NCBI GenBank assembly: GCA_947364045.1
Contig: CANARN010000014.1
Coordinates: 1-41,017 of the forward strand
Reading direction: 5' to 3'
Origin: an uncultured Clostridia bacterium
GTDB taxonomy: Bacteria; Bacillota; Clostridia; Oscillospirales; Acutalibacteraceae
DNA length: 41,017 nt
Part shown: piece by piece, positions 8,195 to 16,935 of the stretch
How the letters are laid out: each line of letters begins with the position of its first letter
How positions within the stretch are numbered: position 1 is the first letter of the stretch
The notes under the pieces: generated by a model
The model's input: the letters and a program-made list of their open reading frames with translations, nothing else
Told to the model about the DNA's origin: nothing
Databases searched by the model: none
Position numbers and translations under genes: made by a program

Positions 8195-8321
8195 AGAAAA
8201 TCCGATTATATGTATATGCAGCGGATATTATGATGAAACAGCACTTACTTAGTATCTGATTTATAATGAATAAAAGCAGTTGACACGAAAAAGATGAACA
8301 GTTAAAGAATCATATTATTTT

Positions 8322-8352
8322 AAGGCGTAGTAAAAAGTCCTCCGCCTTTTTA
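8322..8352 (+). terminator. Terminator ahead of the ccdA operon
   Basis: AAGGCG (8322-8327) pairs with CGCCTT (8343-8348), followed by TTTT. It ends just before the regulatory palindrome at 8353 and isolates the redox operon from upstream transcription. Confidence 0.5.
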
Positions 8353-8394
8353 TGTGATAACATCACGGAAAGCGGTAAGGAAATTCGATAAAAT
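8353..8394 (+). promoter_or_regulatory. Crp/Fnr-type operator and promoter of the ccdA operon
   Basis: The palindrome TGTGATAACATCACG (8353-8367) is followed 22 bases after its first 14 by a -10 box, TAAAAT (8389-8394). There is no good -35, as expected for an activator-dependent (class II) promoter. The palindrome centre is near -41 from the expected start. The same box with the same spacing recurs at 10708 and 14717. Confidence 0.75.
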
Positions 8395-8426
8395 AACACT
8401 ATAAGCTGACGAAAGGAATTCGACGC

Positions 8427-9092
8427 ATGAATTATATCATTACATTTTTAGAGGGGATAATCTCCTTTATATCACCGTGTATGCTACCGATGTTACCTAT
8501 TTACATTTCATATTTTGCGGGGCAAAGCAAAAACGTTGATAACAAAAATCCCAAGATGATATTTAAGGTTATTGCCTTTGTGGTGGGCTTTACGGTTGTA
8601 TTTACGGCTCTCGGGCTTTTCTCGGGAACGCTTGGAAAACTGCTTTCCGAATATCAAGCAATCATAAATATAGTTTCCGGCGTTATTGTAATATTGTTCG
8701 GCCTTTCTTATTTGGAGGTTTTCCGCATTCCGTTTTTTAAGGGAATGAATAAGGGTTATAAAGTAACGGGAATTGCATCGGCTTTTTTATTCGGAGCAAT
8801 TTATTCCATCAGTTTAACCCCTTGCGTTGGAGCTTTTCTCGGCTCTGCACTCATGCTTGCTTCAAGCGCAGGCGGTGCTTTAAAAGGTGCAACATTATTG
8901 CTGACATATTCCCTGGGATTGGGCATTCCGTTTATATTTTCCGCAGTGCTGCTCGATAAGCTATCGGGAGCCTTTACCTTCATCAAAAAACATTATAAGG
9001 TAATCAATTTGGTTAGCGGTATTTTATTGATAATAGTCGGACTTGCAATGGCATTTGGACTTTTAAATTCACTTTTGGCTATTACTATGTGA
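8427..9092 (+). CDS. ccdA: CcdA-type transmembrane thiol transporter
   Basis: A 221-residue integral membrane protein of the CcdA/DsbD-beta family, which passes reducing equivalents from cytoplasmic thioredoxin across the membrane to outward-facing thiol proteins. Six hydrophobic segments are visible. The two reactive cysteines are Cys18 in the first helix (ISPCMLPMLP) and Cys133 in the fourth (SLTPCVGAF). The start at 8427 has GAAAGGA upstream. It begins an operon with a TlpA-like thioredoxin, an FTR-like protein, a ferredoxin and a NapH-like protein, so its electron donor may be unusual. Confidence 0.93.
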   Translation: MNYIITFLEGIISFISPCMLPMLPIYISYFAGQSKNVDNKNPKMIFKVIAFVVGFTVVFTALGLFSGTLGKLLSEYQAIINIVSGVIVILFGLSYLEVFRIPFFKGMNKGYKVTGIASAFLFGAIYSISLTPCVGAFLGSALMLASSAGGALKGATLLLTYSLGLGIPFIFSAVLLDKLSGAFTFIKKHYKVINLVSGILLIIVGLAMAFGLLNSLLAITM

Positions 9093-9101
9093 GGTGAGAA
9101 A

Positions 9102-9662
9102 ATGAAAAACAAGGTATGGATTATAATTGCAGTCACATTTGTTGCGATTATGATACTTGCGGCAGTGCTATATCCGAAGCTTTCGGAAAAGTATTCTACT
9201 GATGAAAAGCAGAATAACGCTTCTTTTGAAAATGTGGTTCAAGCGGATGATTTCACTGTTTATGATTCGGAAATGAATAAAGTAAAACTTTCAGATTACT
9301 TTGGCCAACCAATTGTCATAAACTTTTGGACATCTTGGTGCGGCCCATGTAAGTCCGAGCTTCCGGCATTTGATGTGATGTACGAAAAATACGGTGATGA
9401 GGTCGTATTTATGATGATAAATCTCACCGACGGATATAACGAAACAGTAAACGGTGTCAAAGAATTCGTACTTGACAGCGGCTACAGTTTCCCCGTATAT
9501 TACGACATCGAATATAACGCCTCTAATACCTACGGCGTTCGCTCTATTCCTCAAACCGTATTGATCAATGCAGACGGTTCGCTTTATGATACACGAGTTG
9601 GTGCCATGAGCGAAGTTGTTTTGGAAAATTATATTAAGCAAATGATAGGAGAAGAACAATGA
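9102..9662 (+). CDS. Membrane-anchored TlpA/ResA-like thioredoxin
   Basis: A 186-residue protein with an N-terminal membrane anchor (about residues 5-24) and an extracellular AhpC/TSA-type thioredoxin fold. The active site is WCGPC (Cys80 and Cys83), and the cis-Pro loop is visible at RSIPQTV. Such proteins reduce disulfides outside the membrane and take electrons from CcdA. It has GAGGTG upstream, follows ccdA by 9 bp and overlaps the next gene by 4 bp. No cytochrome c gene is nearby, so a role in oxidative repair or sulfur chemistry is more likely than cytochrome maturation (inferred). Confidence 0.92.
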   Translation: MKNKVWIIIAVTFVAIMILAAVLYPKLSEKYSTDEKQNNASFENVVQADDFTVYDSEMNKVKLSDYFGQPIVINFWTSWCGPCKSELPAFDVMYEKYGDEVVFMMINLTDGYNETVNGVKEFVLDSGYSFPVYYDIEYNASNTYGVRSIPQTVLINADGSLYDTRVGAMSEVVLENYIKQMIGEEQ

Positions 9663-9856
9663 AAATCAAATTAAATCCCGATACGGAAATTGTCAACACC
9701 ATAAAAGAAGGACTGAAAAAGACAGGCGGTTACTGCCCTTGCCGCAGAGAAAAAACAGATGATACCAAGTGTATGTGCAGGGAATTCAAAGATCAGATCG
9801 CCGATCCCAATTTCGAAGGCTTTTGCCACTGTATGCTCTACTACAAGGAAAAGTAA
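9659..9856 (+). CDS. Small ferredoxin:thioredoxin/disulfide reductase-like protein
   Basis: A 65-residue protein with six cysteines in three CxC pairs: CPC (26, 28), CMC (38, 40) and CHC (56, 58). This is the layout of the catalytic subunit of ferredoxin-thioredoxin reductase, whose [4Fe-4S] cluster and redox disulfide convert ferredoxin electrons to a dithiol. The Cys spacing (12 and 16 residues between pairs) differs from the plant and cyanobacterial enzyme, and the protein is much shorter. It overlaps tlpA by 4 bp and precedes a ferredoxin gene, which supports a ferredoxin-to-thiol role. No FTR variable subunit is present. Confidence 0.8.
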   Translation: MKIKLNPDTEIVNTIKEGLKKTGGYCPCRREKTDDTKCMCREFKDQIADPNFEGFCHCMLYYKEK

Positions 9857-9915
9857 TATCAGCATCAAATACCGTAATAAAATATAATAAGCTAATTTTA
9901 ATCGGAGGAATAAGT

Positions 9916-10119
9916 ATGGCGTCTAAACGATATGCGACCGTAGATAAAAGAATTTGCGTTGCCTGCGGTGCCTGTGAAAACATTTGCCCGTTAGGGGCGA
10001 TAAAGGTACATAAAGGATGTTTTGCAAAGGTTGCACAAGACAAATGCGTAGGATGCGGAAAATGCGAAAAGGTTTGCCCGGCAAACAGTATTACAATGGA
10101 AAGCAGGGTGAACATATGA
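9916..10119 (+). CDS. 2[4Fe-4S] ferredoxin
   Basis: A 67-residue ferredoxin with two cluster motifs, CVACGACENICP and CVGCGKCEKVCP. The start at 9916 is set by CGGAGGA nine bases upstream. Its stop overlaps the ATG of the NapH-like gene (ATGA). It is the likely electron carrier for the neighbouring FTR-like or NapH-like proteins. Confidence 0.95.
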   Translation: MASKRYATVDKRICVACGACENICPLGAIKVHKGCFAKVAQDKCVGCGKCEKVCPANSITMESRVNI

Positions 10120-10712
10120 AAACAAAGAAAAAGCATTGGTACGACTATTTATGGATATGGTCCATTGTATATTTTGCACTCGGTTTTTTCAATATTCTGT
10201 TTGCTTGGCTCGGTATGGTTGATTTTCTGTTGCCGCTCATACTCGCTGCATTTGGCGGTAACAAGTTTTTCTGCAACCACCTTTGCGGCAGAGGGCAACT
10301 CTATTGTAAGCTGGGCGGAGATCTTAAATGTTCCCGAAACAAGCCAACACCGAAATGGATGGCATCCAAATGGTTTCGATATGGTTTTCTGATATTTTTC
10401 CTTGCCATGTTCGGCAATATGGTTTTTCAGACCTACCTTGTGGCAAGCGGTTCGGAAAATCTGCGTGAAGCAATCAAACTGTTTTGGACATTCCGTATTC
10501 CGTGGGGATGGACATATTCGGGAAGTATATTCCCGGATTGGGTGGCACAGTTCAGCTTCGGATTTTACAGCCTGATGCTCACATCGCTTCTAATCGGTCT
10601 TATTGTTATGATTTTCTTTAAGCCGAGAACGTGGTGTGCTTTCTGTCCGATGGGAACAATGACACAGGCCATCTGCAAATTAAGGAACAGAAAAGCAATA
10701 AGCGATAAGTGA
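10116..10712 (+). CDS. NapH/CcoG-like iron-sulfur membrane protein
   Basis: A 198-residue protein with about four membrane segments and two cytoplasmic Cys motifs. The first is CNHLCGRGQLYC with a further Cys in DLKCSRNK. The second, near the C-terminus, is CAFCPMGTMTQAIC. These resemble the NapH/NosR/CcoG family, which carry electrons at the membrane. It lacks the usual terminal ferredoxin domains; the separate ferredoxin gene just upstream could supply them. The stop codon lies inside the next regulatory palindrome. Which donor it uses (quinol, ferredoxin or thiol) cannot be told. Confidence 0.8.
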   Translation: MKTKKKHWYDYLWIWSIVYFALGFFNILFAWLGMVDFLLPLILAAFGGNKFFCNHLCGRGQLYCKLGGDLKCSRNKPTPKWMASKWFRYGFLIFFLAMFGNMVFQTYLVASGSENLREAIKLFWTFRIPWGWTYSGSIFPDWVAQFSFGFYSLMLTSLLIGLIVMIFFKPRTWCAFCPMGTMTQAICKLRNRKAISDK

Positions 10713-10749
10713 TAACATCACAGAACTCTGATTTCAAATCGGTTAAAAT
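10708..10749 (+). promoter_or_regulatory. Crp/Fnr-type operator and promoter of the trx operon
   Basis: AGTGATAACATCACA (10708-10722) is followed at the same spacing as the other two copies by a -10 box, TAAAAT (10744-10749). The box overlaps the stop codon of the preceding gene, so it gives internal re-initiation of transcription rather than a separate intergenic region. Confidence 0.75.
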
Positions 10750-10781
10750 AAAGACACAATAAAACAAAGGAGGACACGAAG

Positions 10782-11087
10782 ATGTCTGTCATTAAAATTA
10801 ATAAAGAAAATTTTGCAAGTGAAGTTTTAAATTCTAATAAACCTGTACTTCTCGATTTCTATGCCGATTGGTGCGGCCCTTGCCGTATGGTGGGTCCGAT
10901 CGTATCGGAAATCGCAAATGAACGAAGCGATGTCAAAGTCGGTAAAATCAATGTGGACGAACAACCGGAACTTGCGGCACAGTTTCAGGTAATGAGCATC
11001 CCGATGCTTGCTGTAATCAAAAACGGAGAGCTCGAAAATCAGGTTGTGGGCTATAGACCGAAAGAGCAAATTGAAGCAATGCTGTAA
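10782..11087 (+). CDS. trxA: Thioredoxin
   Basis: A 101-residue cytoplasmic thioredoxin with active site WCGPC (Cys31, Cys34) and the cis-Pro segment MSIPML. A strong ribosome site (GGAGGA) precedes the ATG. It heads a thiol operon with a rhodanese and a CoA-disulfide reductase. No thioredoxin reductase gene lies in the window, so the FTR-like protein upstream is a possible reductant (inference). Confidence 0.96.
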   Translation: MSVIKINKENFASEVLNSNKPVLLDFYADWCGPCRMVGPIVSEIANERSDVKVGKINVDEQPELAAQFQVMSIPMLAVIKNGELENQVVGYRPKEQIEAML

Positions 11088-11097
11088 GGAGAAAAAG

Positions 11098-11421
11098 ATG
11101 GGACTGTTTAATTTCTTCCGCAACACCGCCGACATCAACACCGGTGTTGCGGAATACGAAACAAACGACGGCGCTGTACTGCTTGATGTGAGAACGGCAG
11201 AGGAATACCGTGACGGGCACATTGACGGAAGTGTTAATTTACCTCTTGATAGAATTTCTTCCATTGAGGACGCTGTCAAAGACAAAAACACACCGCTTTA
11301 TGTGCATTGTTACAGCGGCAGCAGAAGCGGTCAGGCTGTAGCCTATCTTAAACGAATGGGCTACACAAACGCAAAAAATATCGGAGGCATCAGCAGCTAC
11401 CGTGGAAAGGTGGTAAAATAA
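11098..11421 (+). CDS. Single-domain rhodanese
   Basis: A 107-residue rhodanese-like sulfurtransferase with persulfide-forming Cys71 in HCYSGSRSG and the typical LLDVRTAEEY strand. The start at 11098 is set by AAGGAG upstream. It ends directly before the ATG of the CoA-disulfide reductase gene, which has its own rhodanese domain. Together they suggest handling of persulfides or polysulfide. Confidence 0.93.
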   Translation: MGLFNFFRNTADINTGVAEYETNDGAVLLDVRTAEEYRDGHIDGSVNLPLDRISSIEDAVKDKNTPLYVHCYSGSRSGQAVAYLKRMGYTNAKNIGGISSYRGKVVK

Positions 11422-13113
11422 ATGAAGGTTGTAATTATAGGCGGTGTTGCAGGCGGTGCTACTGCGGCGGCGAGAATACGCAGGCTTTCGGAACAAGCGG
11501 AAATCGTTGTTTTTGAGCGTTCGGGATTTATCTCCTATGCCAACTGCGGTCTGCCGTACTACATCGGCGGCACCATTGAAGATGAAAATGAGCTGACCTT
11601 GCAGACTCCCGAAAGCTTTTGGGAACGGTTCAGAGTTAAAATGCATGTACATCATGAGGTTACGGTAATTCATCCTGAAAGCAAAACCGTCACCGTAAAA
11701 AATCTTGAAAACGGCAAAGTCTTTACCGAGAGCTACGACAAGCTACTTCTCTCTCCCGGCGCAAAGCCGATAAAGCCCGGCTTTGACGGCATTGACAGCG
11801 ATAAGATATTCACCCTCCGCACCGTTGAGGATACATTGAAAATTAAAAAATATACTGACGAGCAAAATCCCAAATCGGCTGTTGTCGTTGGCGGCGGGTT
11901 TATCGGTATCGAGGCTGCGGAAAACCTGCGTGACCTTGGAATTGATGTGACTCTGGTAGAAGCCGCAGACCAGCTTATGGCTCCCTTTGACGGAGATATG
12001 GCTTCGTTTATTCATGCCGAAATCCGCAAAAACGGTATCCATCTGATGCTTGATACTATGGTGGAGGGCTTTGCCGATGCCGATTGCGGTATTGATGTAA
12101 GGCTCAAAAATGCTCCGACACTTCATTCCGATATGGTTGTAATGGCAATCGGCGTCGCTCCCGAAACCACACTTGCAAAAGATGCGGGCTTAGAACTTGG
12201 CATTAAAGGCAGTATTGCGGTCAATGACAAAATGGAAACATCTATACCTGACATTTATGCGGTTGGAGATGCGGTTCAGATCAAAAATTTTGTAACGGAT
12301 AAGGACACACTCATCTCTCTTGCCGGACCTGCAAACAAGCAAGGAAGAATTGCCGCCGACAACATTTGCGGCGGTGACAGTCATTACACAGGCGGTCAAG
12401 GCAGTTCTGTTATTAAAATATTTGATATAACTGCCGCTGCTACCGGTATTAACGAAAAAATGGCAAAATCCCTTGGTATTGCCGCAGATAAGGTCATTCT
12501 ATCTCCCATGAGCCATGCAGGATATTATCCCGGCGGTAAGATTATGACCTTAAAGGTGTTGTTCGAGAAAGACACATATCGTCTGCTCGGGGCTCAAATT
12601 GTAGGCTTTGAAGGCGTCGATAAACGGATAGATGTACTTGCAACCGCTATCCGTGCCGGAATAAAAGCATATAAACTTACAGAACTTGACCTAGCCTATG
12701 CTCCGCCGTATTCCTCCGCAAAGGACCCTGTGAATATGGCAGGCTATATGATTGAAAACATGAAAAACGGCATTGTAAAGCAATGGTATTATGAGGAAGA
12801 TGAAACACTTCCCCGTGACGGCAGTGTAACACTGCTTGATACCCGCACGCCAATGGAGTACAGCATGGGTCATGCGGACGGATTCATCAATATTCCCGTT
12901 GACGAGCTACGGGAACGCTTGGATGAGCTTGACAAAAGCAAGCCTGTGTATGTCATATGCCAAAGCGGATTGAGAAGCTATATCGCAAGCAGAATTTTAA
13001 TGGGAAACGGTTTTGATGCCTATAACTTTGCCGGCGGATTCCGTTTTTATGACGCAGTCCGCAATGATAAAGCATTAAATAAAAAATCCACTCCCTGCGG
13101 AATGGATGATTAA
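11422..13113 (+). CDS. cdr: CoA-disulfide reductase fused to rhodanese
   Basis: A 563-residue flavoprotein of the CoADR-RHD type. The N-terminal FAD motif is GGVAGGATAAARIRR, and the redox-active Cys42 lies in SYANCGLPYYIGG. The NAD(P)H motif is VVVGGGFIGIEAAENL. The C-terminal rhodanese domain starts at about residue 465 and has Cys513 in VICQSGLRS. These enzymes reduce CoA disulfide, CoA persulfide or polysulfide. The gene ends its operon before a strong terminator. Its length is normal for the fused family. Confidence 0.93.
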   Translation: MKVVIIGGVAGGATAAARIRRLSEQAEIVVFERSGFISYANCGLPYYIGGTIEDENELTLQTPESFWERFRVKMHVHHEVTVIHPESKTVTVKNLENGKVFTESYDKLLLSPGAKPIKPGFDGIDSDKIFTLRTVEDTLKIKKYTDEQNPKSAVVVGGGFIGIEAAENLRDLGIDVTLVEAADQLMAPFDGDMASFIHAEIRKNGIHLMLDTMVEGFADADCGIDVRLKNAPTLHSDMVVMAIGVAPETTLAKDAGLELGIKGSIAVNDKMETSIPDIYAVGDAVQIKNFVTDKDTLISLAGPANKQGRIAADNICGGDSHYTGGQGSSVIKIFDITAAATGINEKMAKSLGIAADKVILSPMSHAGYYPGGKIMTLKVLFEKDTYRLLGAQIVGFEGVDKRIDVLATAIRAGIKAYKLTELDLAYAPPYSSAKDPVNMAGYMIENMKNGIVKQWYYEEDETLPRDGSVTLLDTRTPMEYSMGHADGFINIPVDELRERLDELDKSKPVYVICQSGLRSYIASRILMGNGFDAYNFAGGFRFYDAVRNDKALNKKSTPCGMDD

Positions 13114-13163: not shown

Positions 13164-13820
13164 TCAATCTATAATTTTTTCAAGACCTTTTTTATCTGTA
13201 ATAATAATTATTCCCCGAGATAATGAAATAAGACCCTCGTTAACAAAATATTTCAGCATTCGCGTTACAACTTCACGTGGGCTGCCGAGGTGGTTGCCGA
13301 TTGTTTCGTGGGTGATTTTAAGAATGTTAGTGCCTTCGATGGTTGCCTCATTCAAAAGAAAATCAGCAAGTCTTTTATCAAAGCTTTTCCACATCACTTG
13401 GTCTATCAGCCACATTACATCTGAAAATCGACTTGCCATAACTTCGTTTGTGTAATTGGCAAGCGGTGCGGAAACATCCATAATATTTTTGTAAACTTCT
13501 GATGGGATGACTAAAACCTCAGTTTCCTTTTCAGCAGTAATGGTAATATCAAACTGAATGCTGTTCATAATGCAGGATGCGGAGAACAGGCAAATATCAC
13601 GCTCAAAAAGGCGGTACATCGTAATCTCTCTGCCATCATCGGATATGGTAAAAGCACGAATTTGACCGGATAGCACAAGGAGCAGTCCCGTACAATTCTG
13701 CGAACCATTATGCAAAAGTTCACCCTTGCCGAATTTACGAACAAAAGATGAACTTGTAAGCGTGTCTTGCTGTGATTTCGTCAATTTATCAAATACCGGT
13801 AAGTATGTTAGGTAATTCAT
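13164..13820 (-). CDS. Crp/Fnr-family redox regulator
   Basis: A 218-residue regulator with an N-terminal cyclic-nucleotide-binding-type domain, a long dimer helix and a C-terminal winged helix-turn-helix. The recognition helix reads SPREVVTRML. Its R-E-x-x-x-R pattern matches the CRP residues that read TGTGA, so it is a good candidate for the TGTGATAACATCACA boxes of this island. There is no FNR-type four-Cys cluster, but Cys77 and Cys83 (ICLFSASC) could act as a thiol switch. The start at 13820 has AAGGAG upstream. It is transcribed divergently from the DUF134 gene. Confidence 0.9.
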   Translation of the reverse strand: MNYLTYLPVFDKLTKSQQDTLTSSSFVRKFGKGELLHNGSQNCTGLLLVLSGQIRAFTISDDGREITMYRLFERDICLFSASCIMNSIQFDITITAEKETEVLVIPSEVYKNIMDVSAPLANYTNEVMASRFSDVMWLIDQVMWKSFDKRLADFLLNEATIEGTNILKITHETIGNHLGSPREVVTRMLKYFVNEGLISLSRGIIIITDKKGLEKIID

Positions 13821-13848
13821 AAGTAGCGTCTCCTTTTTTCGTACTTTA

Positions 13849-13914
13849 AGTATAGCATAATTTCGGGCATATGTCAATAAAGTTATTGACATATGCTCGA
13901 AACGGCGTTATACT
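13849..13914. promoter_or_regulatory. Symmetric divergent promoters with a shared palindrome
   Basis: Leftward promoter: TTGACA (13877-13872), 17 bp, TATACT (13854-13849). Rightward promoter: TTGACA (13886-13891), 17 bp, TATACT (13909-13914). A perfect palindrome with 14-bp arms, GCATATGTCAATAA (13867-13880) and TTATTGACATATGC (13883-13896), covers both -35 boxes. One bound protein could therefore shut both genes. The DUF134 protein or the Crp/Fnr protein is the likely binder. Confidence 0.8.
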
Positions 13915-13932: not shown

Positions 13933-14712
13933 ATGCCAAGACCGACGAAATGCCGCCGAGTGTGTTATTTCCCTGAAGTTCTTGAATTTTCTCCAACGGG
14001 AGCAGTGAGCGGGGAGCCAATTGTTTTGACAGTTGATGAGCTTGAAACCATACGACTGATTGACAAAGAAAATTTAAGCCAAGAAGAATGCGGGGCACAA
14101 CTCGGCGTAGGCAGAACAACCGCACAGAAAATCTATGAAACCGCAAGGAAAAAGATAGCAGACGCACTTGTGCTTGGCTGCGCACTGAAAATTGAGGGCG
14201 GCGAGTTTCAGCTTTGCAGCGGCAGTGCAGACTTTTGCTATAAAAAAGACTGTATCAAACGACAAATTCAAAAAGAATACAAAACAGAAAAAGGAGCAAA
14301 TATTATGAGAATCGCAGTAACTTACAAAAACGGAAAAATCTTTCAGCATTTCGGTCACACCGAGCAATTCAAATTGTACGATATTGAAGACGGCAAGGTC
14401 ATTAAAACAGAGCTTATAGATACCAACGACTCCGGCCACGGTGCATTGGCCGGCGTACTCTCCGCTGTAAAAGCAGATGTACTTATTTGCGGCGGTATTG
14501 GTGGTGGCGCACAAATGGCACTGGCAGAAAACGGAATAAAGCTATACGGCGGCGTTAGCGGCAATGCCGATGAGGCGGTAAATGCTTTTGTTGCCGGCAA
14601 TCTTGCCTTCAATCCCAATGTGCAGTGTGAGCACCACGATCATGAACACGGTGGGGAACCCCATACCTGCGGCGACCACGGCTGCGGTCACGGGCATTGC
14701 GGGAATCATTGA
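13933..14712 (+). CDS. DUF134 DNA-binding domain fused to NifX/NafY-like domain
   Basis: A 259-residue fusion. Residues 1-124 are a DUF134/UPF0251 protein with a helix-turn-helix (LSQEECGAQLGVGRTTAQ) and Cys-containing ends. Residues 125-259 begin MRIAVTYKNG and form a dinitrogenase Fe-Mo-cofactor-type (RNase-H-like) domain, followed by a His/Cys-rich tail (HHDHEHGG, then CGDHGCGHGHCG). A strong ribosome site (AAAGGAG) and ATG at 14305 lie exactly at the domain junction, so a separate second product is possible. No nitrogenase genes are present; a metal or Fe-S regulatory role is inferred. It follows a sigma-A promoter at 13886-13914. Confidence 0.88.
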   Translation: MPRPTKCRRVCYFPEVLEFSPTGAVSGEPIVLTVDELETIRLIDKENLSQEECGAQLGVGRTTAQKIYETARKKIADALVLGCALKIEGGEFQLCSGSADFCYKKDCIKRQIQKEYKTEKGANIMRIAVTYKNGKIFQHFGHTEQFKLYDIEDGKVIKTELIDTNDSGHGALAGVLSAVKADVLICGGIGGGAQMALAENGIKLYGGVSGNADEAVNAFVAGNLAFNPNVQCEHHDHEHGGEPHTCGDHGCGHGHCGNH

Positions 14713-14716
14713 GAAA

Positions 14717-14758
14717 TGTGATAACATCACAGAATTGTAATCTGAAATATGCTATTAT
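14717..14758 (+). promoter_or_regulatory. Crp/Fnr-type operator and promoter of the rubredoxin operon
   Basis: The perfect palindrome TGTGATAACATCACA (14717-14731) is followed by TATTAT (14753-14758) at exactly the spacing seen at 8353 and 10708. No -35 box is visible. Confidence 0.75.
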
Positions 14759-14779: not shown

Positions 14780-15397
14780 ATGAAGCAATATATTTGTACG
14801 GTCTGCGGATATATCCATGAAACCGACGACGAATTGCCCGATGATTTCAAGTGTCCGCTTTGCGGTGCGGGTAAGGACGCTTTTGTGCTGAAAGAGGAAA
14901 CCCCTAAAGCAGAAACAATCCTTGAAAAGCCGCATACAGAAAAAGAATTATCCCCAATGGAGATGAGCATCATTTGCTCCAATCTTGCAAGAGGGTGCGA
15001 AAAGCAGTATATGCCTGAAGAATCTGAAAATTTTAGAAAACTTGCAGACTTCTTCCGTCAAAAAGCAGAACCTGTCAGCAATGCAGGCACAGAGGCACTG
15101 CTTGAATTGATTAATCATGATATTTCGGTAGGATTTCCTTACGGAAAAGCAGCTGCAGAAGAGCGGCCCGACCGTGGCGCACTTCGCTGTCAGGTGTGGG
15201 CAGAAAAGGTAACAAGAATGTTGCAGTCACTTCTCACCCGATATGAGGTTGAGGGTAACAAGATGCTTGAAAACACAGGTGTGTATGTCTGCACAGTCTG
15301 CGGATTTGTATTCGTTGGCGATGCGCCGCCTGCGCTTTGTCCCGTCTGTAAAGTTCCTGCGTGGAAGTTTGAAAAGATAGAAGGAGATGCAAGATAA
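14780..15397 (+). CDS. Two-rubredoxin-domain protein
   Basis: A 205-residue protein. The N-terminal rubredoxin domain has CTVCGYIH and [12 protein letters not shown] helical middle segment of about 120 residues follows, then a second, shorter rubrerythrin-type rubredoxin knuckle with CTVCGFVF and [11 protein letters not shown]. Each would hold one Fe(Cys)4. It probably delivers electrons to the rubrerythrin or desulfoferrodoxin encoded next. The ribosome site is AAAGGAGG. It overlaps the next start by one base (TAATG). The function of the middle region is unknown. Confidence 0.85.
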
Positions 15398-16542
15398 TGG
15401 CAGATAAATATGCGGTACGAAACTTAAGACTTTGCACAAAAGACTGTCTTTGCCTTTATGTTTGCCCTACCGGCGCTGCTGATACGGAGAACAGTATTAT
15501 TGATCCAGATAAGTGTATCGGCTGCGGCGTATGTGCCGAGGCATGTCCTTCGGGCGCTATCTCTATGATGCCCAAGGAGTTACCTCCACAGCAACCCAAA
15601 ACGGAGCAAGTAACCGAAGCTTTGCGTGTTCTTGCTCAAAGCAAAGCAAAAGCTGAAATCATAGCTTCTCAGCTGCCCGATACACTTTCGGAGGCGGTAG
15701 CAAAATCGTCCCGACTTATGGCAGAAGACCTTTGCCGGGAAGCAGGCTATATGCTTCCGCAAAGCGCCAACACAAAAGAATTTTTAGAGCAGATAAAATC
15801 CTATCCCGATATTCCGATAGATGTAGTGGAAGCATTGCTCCATAACATTAATTTCAATGAAAATACAGCAAAGAAAGAGGTAACGAAAATGGCAAAATGG
15901 AAATGCACCGTATGCGGTTATATTTACGAGGGAGATACTCCTCCCGAAACCTGCCCTGTCTGCAAACAGCCGAAAGAAAAATTCGTAAAGCTTGAGGAAG
16001 AATCCAAGAATCCCTATGCCGGCACCAAGACTGAAAAGAATCTTTGGGAAGCATTTGCAGGCGAATCTCAGGCAAGAAACAAGTATACATACTTTGCTTC
16101 TGTTGCAAAGAAAGCAGGCTTTGAACAGATTGCAGCACTTTTCCTGCAGACTGCCGAAAATGAAAAGGAACATGCGAAACTGTGGTTTAAGGCTCTCGGC
16201 GAGCTTGGTGACACTGCCGAAAACCTGCTCCATGCAGCAGAAGGCGAAAACGCCGAGTGGACGGATATGTATGACCGTATGGCAAGAGAAGCTGATGAAG
16301 AAGGCTTCCACGATTTAGCCGAACAGTTCCGTGGTGTTGCCGCTATTGAGAAAGCACATGAGGAAAGATACCGTGCGCTTCTTAAGAATGTTGAAACCAA
16401 AGCAGTATTTGAAAAGTCCGGCGTAACAGTTTGGGAATGCCGCAACTGCGGACATATCGTTGTTGGTACTACGGCTCCCAAAATTTGTCCTGTATGTAAG
16501 CATCCGCAGGCCTATTTTGAAGTTCGTAAAGAAAATTATTAA
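15397..16542 (+). CDS. Ferredoxin-rubredoxin-rubrerythrin-rubredoxin fusion
   Basis: A 381-residue fusion. Residues 1-60 hold ferredoxin-type clusters, the second a clear [12 protein letters not shown] and the first atypical ([12 protein letters not shown]). After a helical linker, a rubredoxin knuckle begins at about 167 ([15 protein letters not shown]). The rubrerythrin diiron domain follows, with ligand segments [17 protein letters not shown] and [10 protein letters not shown], and then a final rubredoxin domain ([15 protein letters not shown]). It should reduce hydrogen peroxide to water. An in-frame ATG at 15889 with AGAGGT upstream starts exactly where a normal rubrerythrin begins, so a 217-residue free form may also be made. 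Confidence 0.88.
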
Positions 16543-16554
16543 GGTGAACGAAAA

Positions 16555-16935
16555 ATGAGAGAAAAGTTTTATATTTGCCGCCATTGCGGTAATTTGATCG
16601 GTCTTATTCACGATGCAGGGGTTCCCATGATGTGCTGCGGACAGAAGATGGAGGCGCTGGTTCCTAACACCATCGAAGCAGCGGGAGAAAAGCACTTGCC
16701 TTTTGTGAATTTGGAAGACGGTTCTGTTTATGTAAGGATCGGCGAAACAATGCATCCGATGACTGAGGAACATTATATTCAGTGGATTTACCTTGAAACG
16801 GAGAACGGAGGTCAGCGAAGAGCCTTTAAACCCGGCGATACACCGGAAGCTACTTTCTGCACCGGCGAAGATAAACTCATTGCAGTTTATGCTTACTGCA
16901 ACCTCCACGGACTTTGGAAAACTGAAATCAAGTAA
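16555..16935 (+). CDS. dfx: Desulfoferrodoxin (superoxide reductase)
   Basis: A 126-residue 2Fe superoxide reductase that turns superoxide into peroxide without making oxygen. The N-terminal desulforedoxin centre has Cys8, Cys11, Cys27 and Cys28. The catalytic iron site has Lys46-His47, His67, His73, Cys115 and His118, all present. It ends the rubredoxin-rubrerythrin operon, so electron donor, superoxide reductase and peroxidase are made together. A strong terminator follows. Confidence 0.97.
   Translation: MREKFYICRHCGNLIGLIHDAGVPMMCCGQKMEALVPNTIEAAGEKHLPFVNLEDGSVYVRIGETMHPMTEEHYIQWIYLETENGGQRRAFKPGDTPEATFCTGEDKLIAVYAYCNLHGLWKTEIK

Follow-up and report, generated by a model that had tools for sequence, protein, structure and literature searches.

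The window analysed here, a 41,017-nucleotide stretch of contig CANARN010000014.1 from an uncultured Clostridia bacterium of the Acutalibacteraceae, carries a gene for a 65-residue homologue of the catalytic chain of ferredoxin:thioredoxin reductase (FTR), which we call mini-FTR. The gene lies among those for the membrane protein CcdA, a TlpA-like thioredoxin-fold protein, a ferredoxin, a NapH-like iron-sulfur (Fe-S) membrane protein and a thioredoxin (Table 1). Judging from gene content and gene order, thioredoxin is probably reduced by mini-FTR with electrons of ferredoxin; in a few relatives the mini-FTR gene also adjoins the genes of a membrane pathway by which reducing power might reach the cell surface. 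An earlier note on this DNA had drawn a path from ferredoxin through the FTR-like protein to CcdA and on to TlpA. Ferredoxin as donor and a CcdA-TlpA branch may stand, so that a ferredoxin-fed thiol relay is plausible in a few lineages, while direct transfer from the FTR-like protein to CcdA is unlikely.

A 65-residue FTR homologue and its thioredoxin neighbour

The Pfam score of mini-FTR exceeded the curated threshold for PF02943 only just (Table 1), and its identity was therefore examined by alignment and by profile-profile comparison. Among 18 aligned sequences, the window's included, 25 positions are invariant, and all six cysteines, forming CPC, CxC and CHC motifs, are among them (18/18 rows). 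In FTRs, four of the six cysteines are cluster ligands and the other two form the redox pair; mini-FTR presumably binds a [4Fe-4S] cluster as well. In hhalign, the mini-FTR profile matched a profile of longer FTR-chain proteins from Clostridia with a probability of 95.2% (E 2.6e-8), both alignments being shallow. The FTR of plants and cyanobacteria shares with mini-FTR the family PF02943, the order of the three motifs and a thioredoxin neighbour, but it is a heterodimer with a variable subunit, and its catalytic chain is of ~13 kDa. The motifs are 9 and 15 residues apart in mini-FTR, as against 14 and 12 in the longer clostridial FTRs and 16 and 8 in canonical FTR. The FTR variable subunit is said to be exclusive to oxygenic phototrophs in the part of PMC9025218 available to us. 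A Pfam scan of 20 window proteins gave no match to FtrV, no search aimed at FtrV having been made. A search of PDB with the clostridial mini-FTR profile (A2) retrieved no FTR, its sole match being a chance-level methyltransferase (E 0.6).

With A2 at E<=1e-12, mini-FTR was detected in 38 of 393 genomes of the class. PF02943 matched 32 of the 393, six of them by long FTRs, and 8 of 59 relatives (the window genome is in both sets); these Pfam counts alone were rejected as sufficient. The 52 mini-FTR loci that we examined came from all 38 class genomes and the additional relatives; three of them (G260, G115 and G138) are weak hits that do not match the motif. Several of these loci stop at contig ends, which hides neighbours, and the ends of the open reading frames (ORFs) were set mechanically. 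The 9/15 spacing was found in 46 of the 52, and other spacings in three phage-type loci. We regard as the broader finding a 65-residue FTR of Clostridia with a thioredoxin partner, which appears to be a minimal variant of FTR. As an observation in its own right, in locus L073 (2056-3473) a 4-bp overlap joins the mini-FTR gene to the end of a flavodiiron-type gene (ODP plus flavodoxin), an oxygen-defence neighbour.

Thioredoxin is the usual neighbour. In 29 of the 52 loci its gene is found no more than 3.5 kb from the mini-FTR gene and on the same strand, and in 26 the distance is at most 50 bp, whereas CcdA is near in only four, all of which also have a thioredoxin gene; a NapH-like gene is likewise near in four. 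Since thioredoxin is so often within 50 bp and CcdA so seldom near, thioredoxin is the likelier direct acceptor, and we consider it the likely direct partner of mini-FTR.

The distribution of TrxB agrees with ferredoxin as the donor. At E<=1e-40, TrxB was present in 355 of the 393 class genomes; among those with mini-FTR, 10 of 38 (eight families) had no such match, versus 28 of the 355 without mini-FTR (Fisher p 0.0014), or 9 of 36 when two doubtful members were left out (p 0.0033). A smaller comparison gave 11 of 33 versus 1 of 23 (p 0.0098). These tests, like that for CcdA below, ignore shared ancestry; gene absence rests on incomplete assemblies, the overlaps of the TrxB, CcdA and mini-FTR sets were counted from result tables, and the missing TrxB of G260 is taken from its absence among the TrxB matches listed. 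The motifs GxGxxA and HRRxxxR tell NADPH-type from other TrxBs according to the part of PMC10880999 available to us. Among the 33 mini-FTR genomes, the examined TrxB copy carries HRRxxxR in 6 and lacks it in 14, while 11 have no TrxB, one has a partial copy and one was unexamined; among the 23 others the motif is present in 10 and lacking in 10, one has no TrxB and two were unexamined. We judged the motif by eye, in most genomes from the best TrxB hit alone.

Phages offer a parallel. In viral contigs scanned that carry a phage-type mini-FTR, nrdD- and nrdG-like genes both lie upstream of it in 8 of 14 loci (L258-L260, L262-L265 and L267, of which L262 and L263 are near-copies), and an nrdD-like gene alone in two more, these labels being NCBIfam matches of the phage-type queries below curated cut-offs. 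This context suggests that the phages bring along a source of electrons of their own for making deoxynucleotides anaerobically. The class III ribonucleotide reductase of Methanosarcina barkeri reportedly gets its electrons from a ferredoxin disulfide reductase, and together the phage context and the archaeal parallel support mini-FTR as a putative ferredoxin:disulfide reductase for thioredoxin-fold partners. The proposal of the earlier note that ferredoxin is the donor is thereby strengthened, given also the adjacent ferredoxin gene and the enrichment of TrxB absence in mini-FTR genomes. Two further points were noted on the viral side: a glutaredoxin-like gene lies upstream of the phage-type mini-FTR in 6 of the 14 loci, and Bacteroides crAss-like phages (crAss001 and relatives) encode distant mini-FTR relatives (32-35% identity) annotated as 'putative ferredoxin-thioredoxin reductase'.

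The possible CcdA-TlpA branch and the ferredoxin/NapH-like pair

CcdA of the window matches PF02683, and its membrane cysteine pair, C18 and C133, is invariant in 4/4 aligned rows. The TlpA-like protein has one N-terminal hydrophobic segment followed by WCGPC; its scores for ResA and StoA fell short of the NCBIfam cut-offs, and for this reason we claim no TlpA subfamily. Gene order was read from the 30 CcdA loci of the class with the best scores, a non-random sample retrieved with a profile built from the window's own clade, which may miss distant CcdAs. TlpA adjoins CcdA in all 30, and mini-FTR does so in four (the window genome G000, G321, G436 and G127). The order ccdA-tlpA-ftr is thus found in 4 of 393 class genomes, each of a different family, and it recurs in the loci L079, L089 and L092 of metagenome-assembled genomes (MAGs). 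The recurrence on which the earlier note had made its idea depend is therefore real, although the set is rare.

In each of the seven FTR-linked loci, ftr directly follows tlpA. A tree of 34 CcdAs groups the seven in a single clade of 10 members (support 100/99); the 24 rows outside that clade show no FTR link within 1.5 kb. Because four of the seven are closely related and the link label has to change three times on the tree, the tree does not resolve gain from loss within the clade. A general link between mini-FTR and CcdA was considered and rejected, as CcdA is near only 4 of the 52 mini-FTR loci and is rarer in mini-FTR genomes. The clearest candidate for a ferredoxin-driven envelope relay is G127, in which ccdA, tlpA, ftr and the thioredoxin gene are contiguous and TrxB is absent.

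The ferredoxin and NapH-like genes appear to be a module of their own. In the best 80 of at least 518 relatives of the NapH-like protein, a non-random set in which L115 and L017 are the same assembly, a ferredoxin gene accompanies the NapH-like one in 80/80 loci, while within 6 kb FTR is found in 15, thioredoxin in 25 and CcdA in 6. The pair is therefore a widespread two-gene module, mostly without FTR or CcdA nearby, and the reading of the NapH-like protein as a relay-specific part, like that of the five genes as one indivisible set, was discarded. A C_GCAxxG_C_C-type protein, one representative of which was named by Pfam, is also encoded near the NapH-like gene in 20 of the 80 loci. The cysteines C53, C57, C174, C177 and C187 are invariant in 23 rows, all of which match Fer4_5, the only domain that Pfam shows in the window protein. 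A reading by eye of windowed hydropathy and of the K and R distribution puts these cysteines on the K/R-rich, presumably cytosolic, side, so that the protein is unlikely to move electrons across the membrane by itself. No nap gene was found among the 20 window proteins scanned, and we use the term NapH-like without claiming a periplasmic nitrate reductase NapH.

Gene layout, palindromes and a Crp-family regulator

The five genes named in the earlier note, from ccdA to the NapH-like gene, were all confirmed, and the packing is tight, with 4-bp overlaps for tlpA/ftr and for the ferredoxin and NapH-like genes. The span assigned to the set was nevertheless too short: the thioredoxin gene comes next on the same strand, followed by genes for a rhodanese and a CoA-disulfide-reductase (CoADR)-like protein, all behind a second copy of a palindrome. 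A near-identity search of plasmids with positions 8300-10800 of the window gave no match.

Table 1. Genes and candidate regulatory sites of the locus (window positions)
Feature	Positions	Strand	Match or remark
Palindrome GTGATAACATCAC, 13 bp, before ccdA (candidate operator)	8354..8366	+	TAAAAT 8389-8394
CcdA, 221 aa, DsbD_TM	8427..9092	+	PF02683 79.5 bits (cut-off 27.1)
TlpA/ResA-like membrane-anchored thioredoxin-fold protein, WCGPC (C80/C83)	9102..9662	+	AhpC-TSA 74.4 bits (cut-off 26)
Mini-FTR, 65-aa FTR catalytic-chain homologue, CPC-X9-CMC-X15-CHC	9659..9856	+	PF02943 24.2 bits (cut-off 22)
2[4Fe-4S] ferredoxin	9916..10119	+	
NapH-like Fer4_5 membrane protein	10116..10712	+	Fer4_5 31 bits (cut-off 22)
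Second GTGATAACATCAC copy, before the thioredoxin gene	10709..10721	+	TAAAAT 10744-10749
Thioredoxin (WCGPC)	10782..11087	+	TIGR01068 115.4 bits (cut-off 96.8)
Single-domain rhodanese	11098..11421	+	
CoADR-like flavoprotein, C-terminal rhodanese domain	11422..13113	+	TIGR03385 517.2 bits, below cut-off 578.8
Crp/Fnr-family regulator	13164..13892	-	Pfam; candidate regulator of the three palindromes (putative binding)
DUF134 plus Nitro_FeMo-Co (NifX/NifB-type) protein	13933..14712	+	Pfam
Third GTGATAACATCAC copy, before the rubredoxin-like gene	14718..14730	+	TATTAT 14753-14758
Rubredoxin-like protein	14780..15397	+	
Fer4-rubrerythrin protein	15397..16542	+	
Desulfoferrodoxin	16555..16935	+	

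The palindrome GTGATAACATCAC has three perfect copies in the 2,014,542-base assembly and no other with up to one mismatch, and a reversed control pattern has 0 matches. In a window-only test allowing up to two mismatches, 2 of 100 shuffles reached three matches. In all three copies a -10-like hexamer, picked by eye, ends 34 bp from the palindrome centre, the spacing expected for a class II Crp/Fnr activator site. Standing before ccdA, the thioredoxin gene and the rubredoxin-like gene, the three copies suggest one regulon in the window genome. Locus L061, of another family, has similar palindromes before ccdA and the thioredoxin gene, again 73 bp from the start codons, and such sites are also present in L079, L081, L082, L083, L089 and L017/L115. 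Generic scans of the window were at chance level both for promoters (15 versus a shuffle mean of 13.6) and for terminators (4 versus 5.2).

The Crp-family protein encoded at 13164-13892 is the candidate regulator of these palindromes. A C-x(1-3)-S[AS][SA]-C pattern, CLFSASC in the window, occurs in 26 of the 28 Crp-family ORFs of the NapH-like loci and would suit a thiol sensor or possible thiol switch. We view the locus as an island for redox defence that its own Crp-family regulator probably controls.

Proposed electron routes, known relatives and significance

In the model that we favour, to which we give an even chance, electrons would pass from ferredoxin through mini-FTR and thioredoxin to cytosolic clients, with CcdA-TlpA as a rare membrane branch. 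Ferredoxin reduced via pyruvate:ferredoxin oxidoreductase (PFOR) would give single electrons to the [4Fe-4S] mini-FTR; the window genome encodes PFOR (1710.8 bits), and reduced ferredoxin should therefore be available. Mini-FTR would then reduce the disulfide of the neighbouring thioredoxin, which would serve cytosolic clients and, in the window lineage, also hand electrons to CcdA. The pair C18/C133 of CcdA would pass them to the CxxC of TlpA outside, and TlpA might reduce envelope disulfides or oxidised proteins. The NapH-like protein would stand outside the thiol relay, as an Fe-S protein of the membrane that partners ferredoxin on the cytosolic face. A more specific version, which we advance tentatively and hold to be a little short of an even chance, is that the 65-residue FTR replaces TrxB in some Clostridia and that one CcdA lineage has built on it a relay from ferredoxin via mini-FTR, thioredoxin and CcdA to TlpA, here in a Crp-family regulon, for redox repair at the surface without NADPH.

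Several observations weigh against this reading. CcdA is rarer in mini-FTR genomes than in others (7/38 versus 161/355, p 0.0016), and in the locus of G015 (L017, 7361-7790) most of ccdA is gone, as is the half of tlpA that encodes CxxC. Of the 38 TrxB-less class genomes, 28 also lack mini-FTR, so that something else can fill the role of TrxB. The assembly of the window genome (96.82% complete) encodes two strong homologues of TrxB, which could reduce thioredoxin. A GxGxxA-like motif is retained in both, but HRRxxxR is missing from their NADPH site, so that they are atypical and may or may not depend on NADPH; the contrast with an NADPH-TrxB route drawn in the earlier note is accordingly weak. 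The palindrome, too, is not shared by all relatives: none with up to one mismatch was found in the loci L054 (G127) and L092, and L068 (G436) has only a one-mismatch copy ~380 bp before ccdA. Finally, the ferredoxin:disulfide reductase (FDR) of Methanosarcina acetivorans is reported, in the part of PMC6262447 available to us, to be inactive on canonical thioredoxins, and the window thioredoxin is a canonical WCGPC one; this speaks against a simple transfer of the FDR activity to it. One side observation concerns one of these TrxB homologues: in L163 (3177-6525) an HRRxxxR-less TrxB-like gene of the window genome adjoins an anaerobic ribonucleotide reductase gene, and the C-terminus of the product of this reductase gene gives a weak thioredoxin-like match.

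The strongest contender to the favoured model, clearly short of an even chance yet to be taken seriously, is that mini-FTR serves cytosolic thioredoxin only, CcdA-TlpA being an ordinary clostridial pair in the same locus that is fed by any reduced thioredoxin. No CcdA is nearby in 25 of the 29 thioredoxin-linked mini-FTR loci, and among the 30 best CcdA loci TlpA is a constant neighbour and FTR an occasional one (4/30). G015 retains the FTR, ferredoxin, NapH-like and thioredoxin genes despite its broken ccdA-tlpA, on a contig whose N run inside napH calls for caution, and in six loci of Oscillibacter, Faecalibacterium and Hominifimenecus (L086, L113, L117, L119, L127 and L133) the genes for FTR, ferredoxin, NapH-like protein, thioredoxin and CoADR stand in a row with no CcdA hit within 7 kb. 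These six loci also support the neighbouring ferredoxin as the donor of FTR. The 4-bp overlap of tlpA and ftr in the window argues against a purely cytosolic role, as do the concentration of the FTR link in one CcdA clade (7/10, with none within 1.5 kb in the 24 rows outside) and the retention of ccdA-tlpA-ftr-trx in the TrxB-less G127.

That mini-FTR passes electrons straight to CcdA without thioredoxin, as the earlier note had it, would agree with the position of ftr immediately after tlpA in all seven FTR-linked loci and with the separate palindrome copy in front of the window thioredoxin gene. We hold it to be very improbable, given that thioredoxin is the commonest neighbour of mini-FTR (29/52), that CcdA is rare there and in all four cases accompanied by thioredoxin, and that the pneumococcal model has CcdA fed by cytosolic thioredoxin (in the part of PMC3914529 available to us). 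Hardly more probable is a sulfane-sulfur or persulfide system, in which the rhodanese, the CoADR-rhodanese protein and thioredoxin would handle persulfides and CcdA-TlpA would bring reducing power to extracellular polysulfide. Both rhodanese genes are contiguous with the thioredoxin gene and recur in L061, L068 and L092, but most FTR-thioredoxin pairs of the 52-locus set have no rhodanese hit nearby, and the third palindrome, before the rubredoxin-like/rubrerythrin/desulfoferrodoxin unit, points to oxygen and peroxide defence.

Among characterised proteins, PDB 4tpu, which we take to be the FDR of M. acetivorans and whose deposited molecule name is Rubredoxin, is, like mini-FTR, an FTR catalytic-chain homologue. 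It differs in its 173 residues and ~14/12 cysteine spacing, and its pairwise match to mini-FTR is weak (E 0.034, residues 4-63, below an unrelated repeat protein). NTR and FDR reduce thioredoxins of M. acetivorans but not canonical ones in the account of PMC6262447, of which a part was available to us. The flavin ferredoxin-thioredoxin reductase (FFTR) of Clostridia shares ferredoxin-dependent reduction of thioredoxin with the proposed function, but it is a TrxB-like flavoprotein of another fold and family; the survey of clostridial thioredoxins that treats it (PMC10880999), in the part of its main text available to us, contains neither 'FTR' nor 'CcdA'. The CcdA-Etrx-MsrAB2 pathway of Streptococcus pneumoniae resembles the putative membrane branch in that CcdA draws electrons from thioredoxin in the cytosol and delivers them to a TlpA-like protein of the surface for repair under oxidative stress, but it is modelled as driven by NADPH and TrxB, and no FTR, ferredoxin or NapH-like part was seen in the available part of PMC3914529. 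No MsrAB was found among the window proteins scanned. NapH-like modules of a flavinylation survey are likewise PF12801 multi-helix Fe-S membrane proteins, modular with varied partners, but they have an FMN-binding domain or partner, where the window protein is paired with ferredoxin instead (PMC8238504, in the part available to us). A literature search found no mini-FTR/CcdA system in the titles and abstract beginnings among the matches listed, which covered few subscription papers.

How strict anaerobes that run on ferredoxin keep thioredoxin and the cell surface reduced under oxygen has been little studied. A 65-residue Fe-S enzyme in the place of TrxB could account for some of the Clostridia without a recognisable TrxB (mini-FTR is present in 10 of the 38 TrxB-less genomes of the class), and would open a ferredoxin-driven envelope pathway to direct test with a few small proteins and three promoters that resemble one another.

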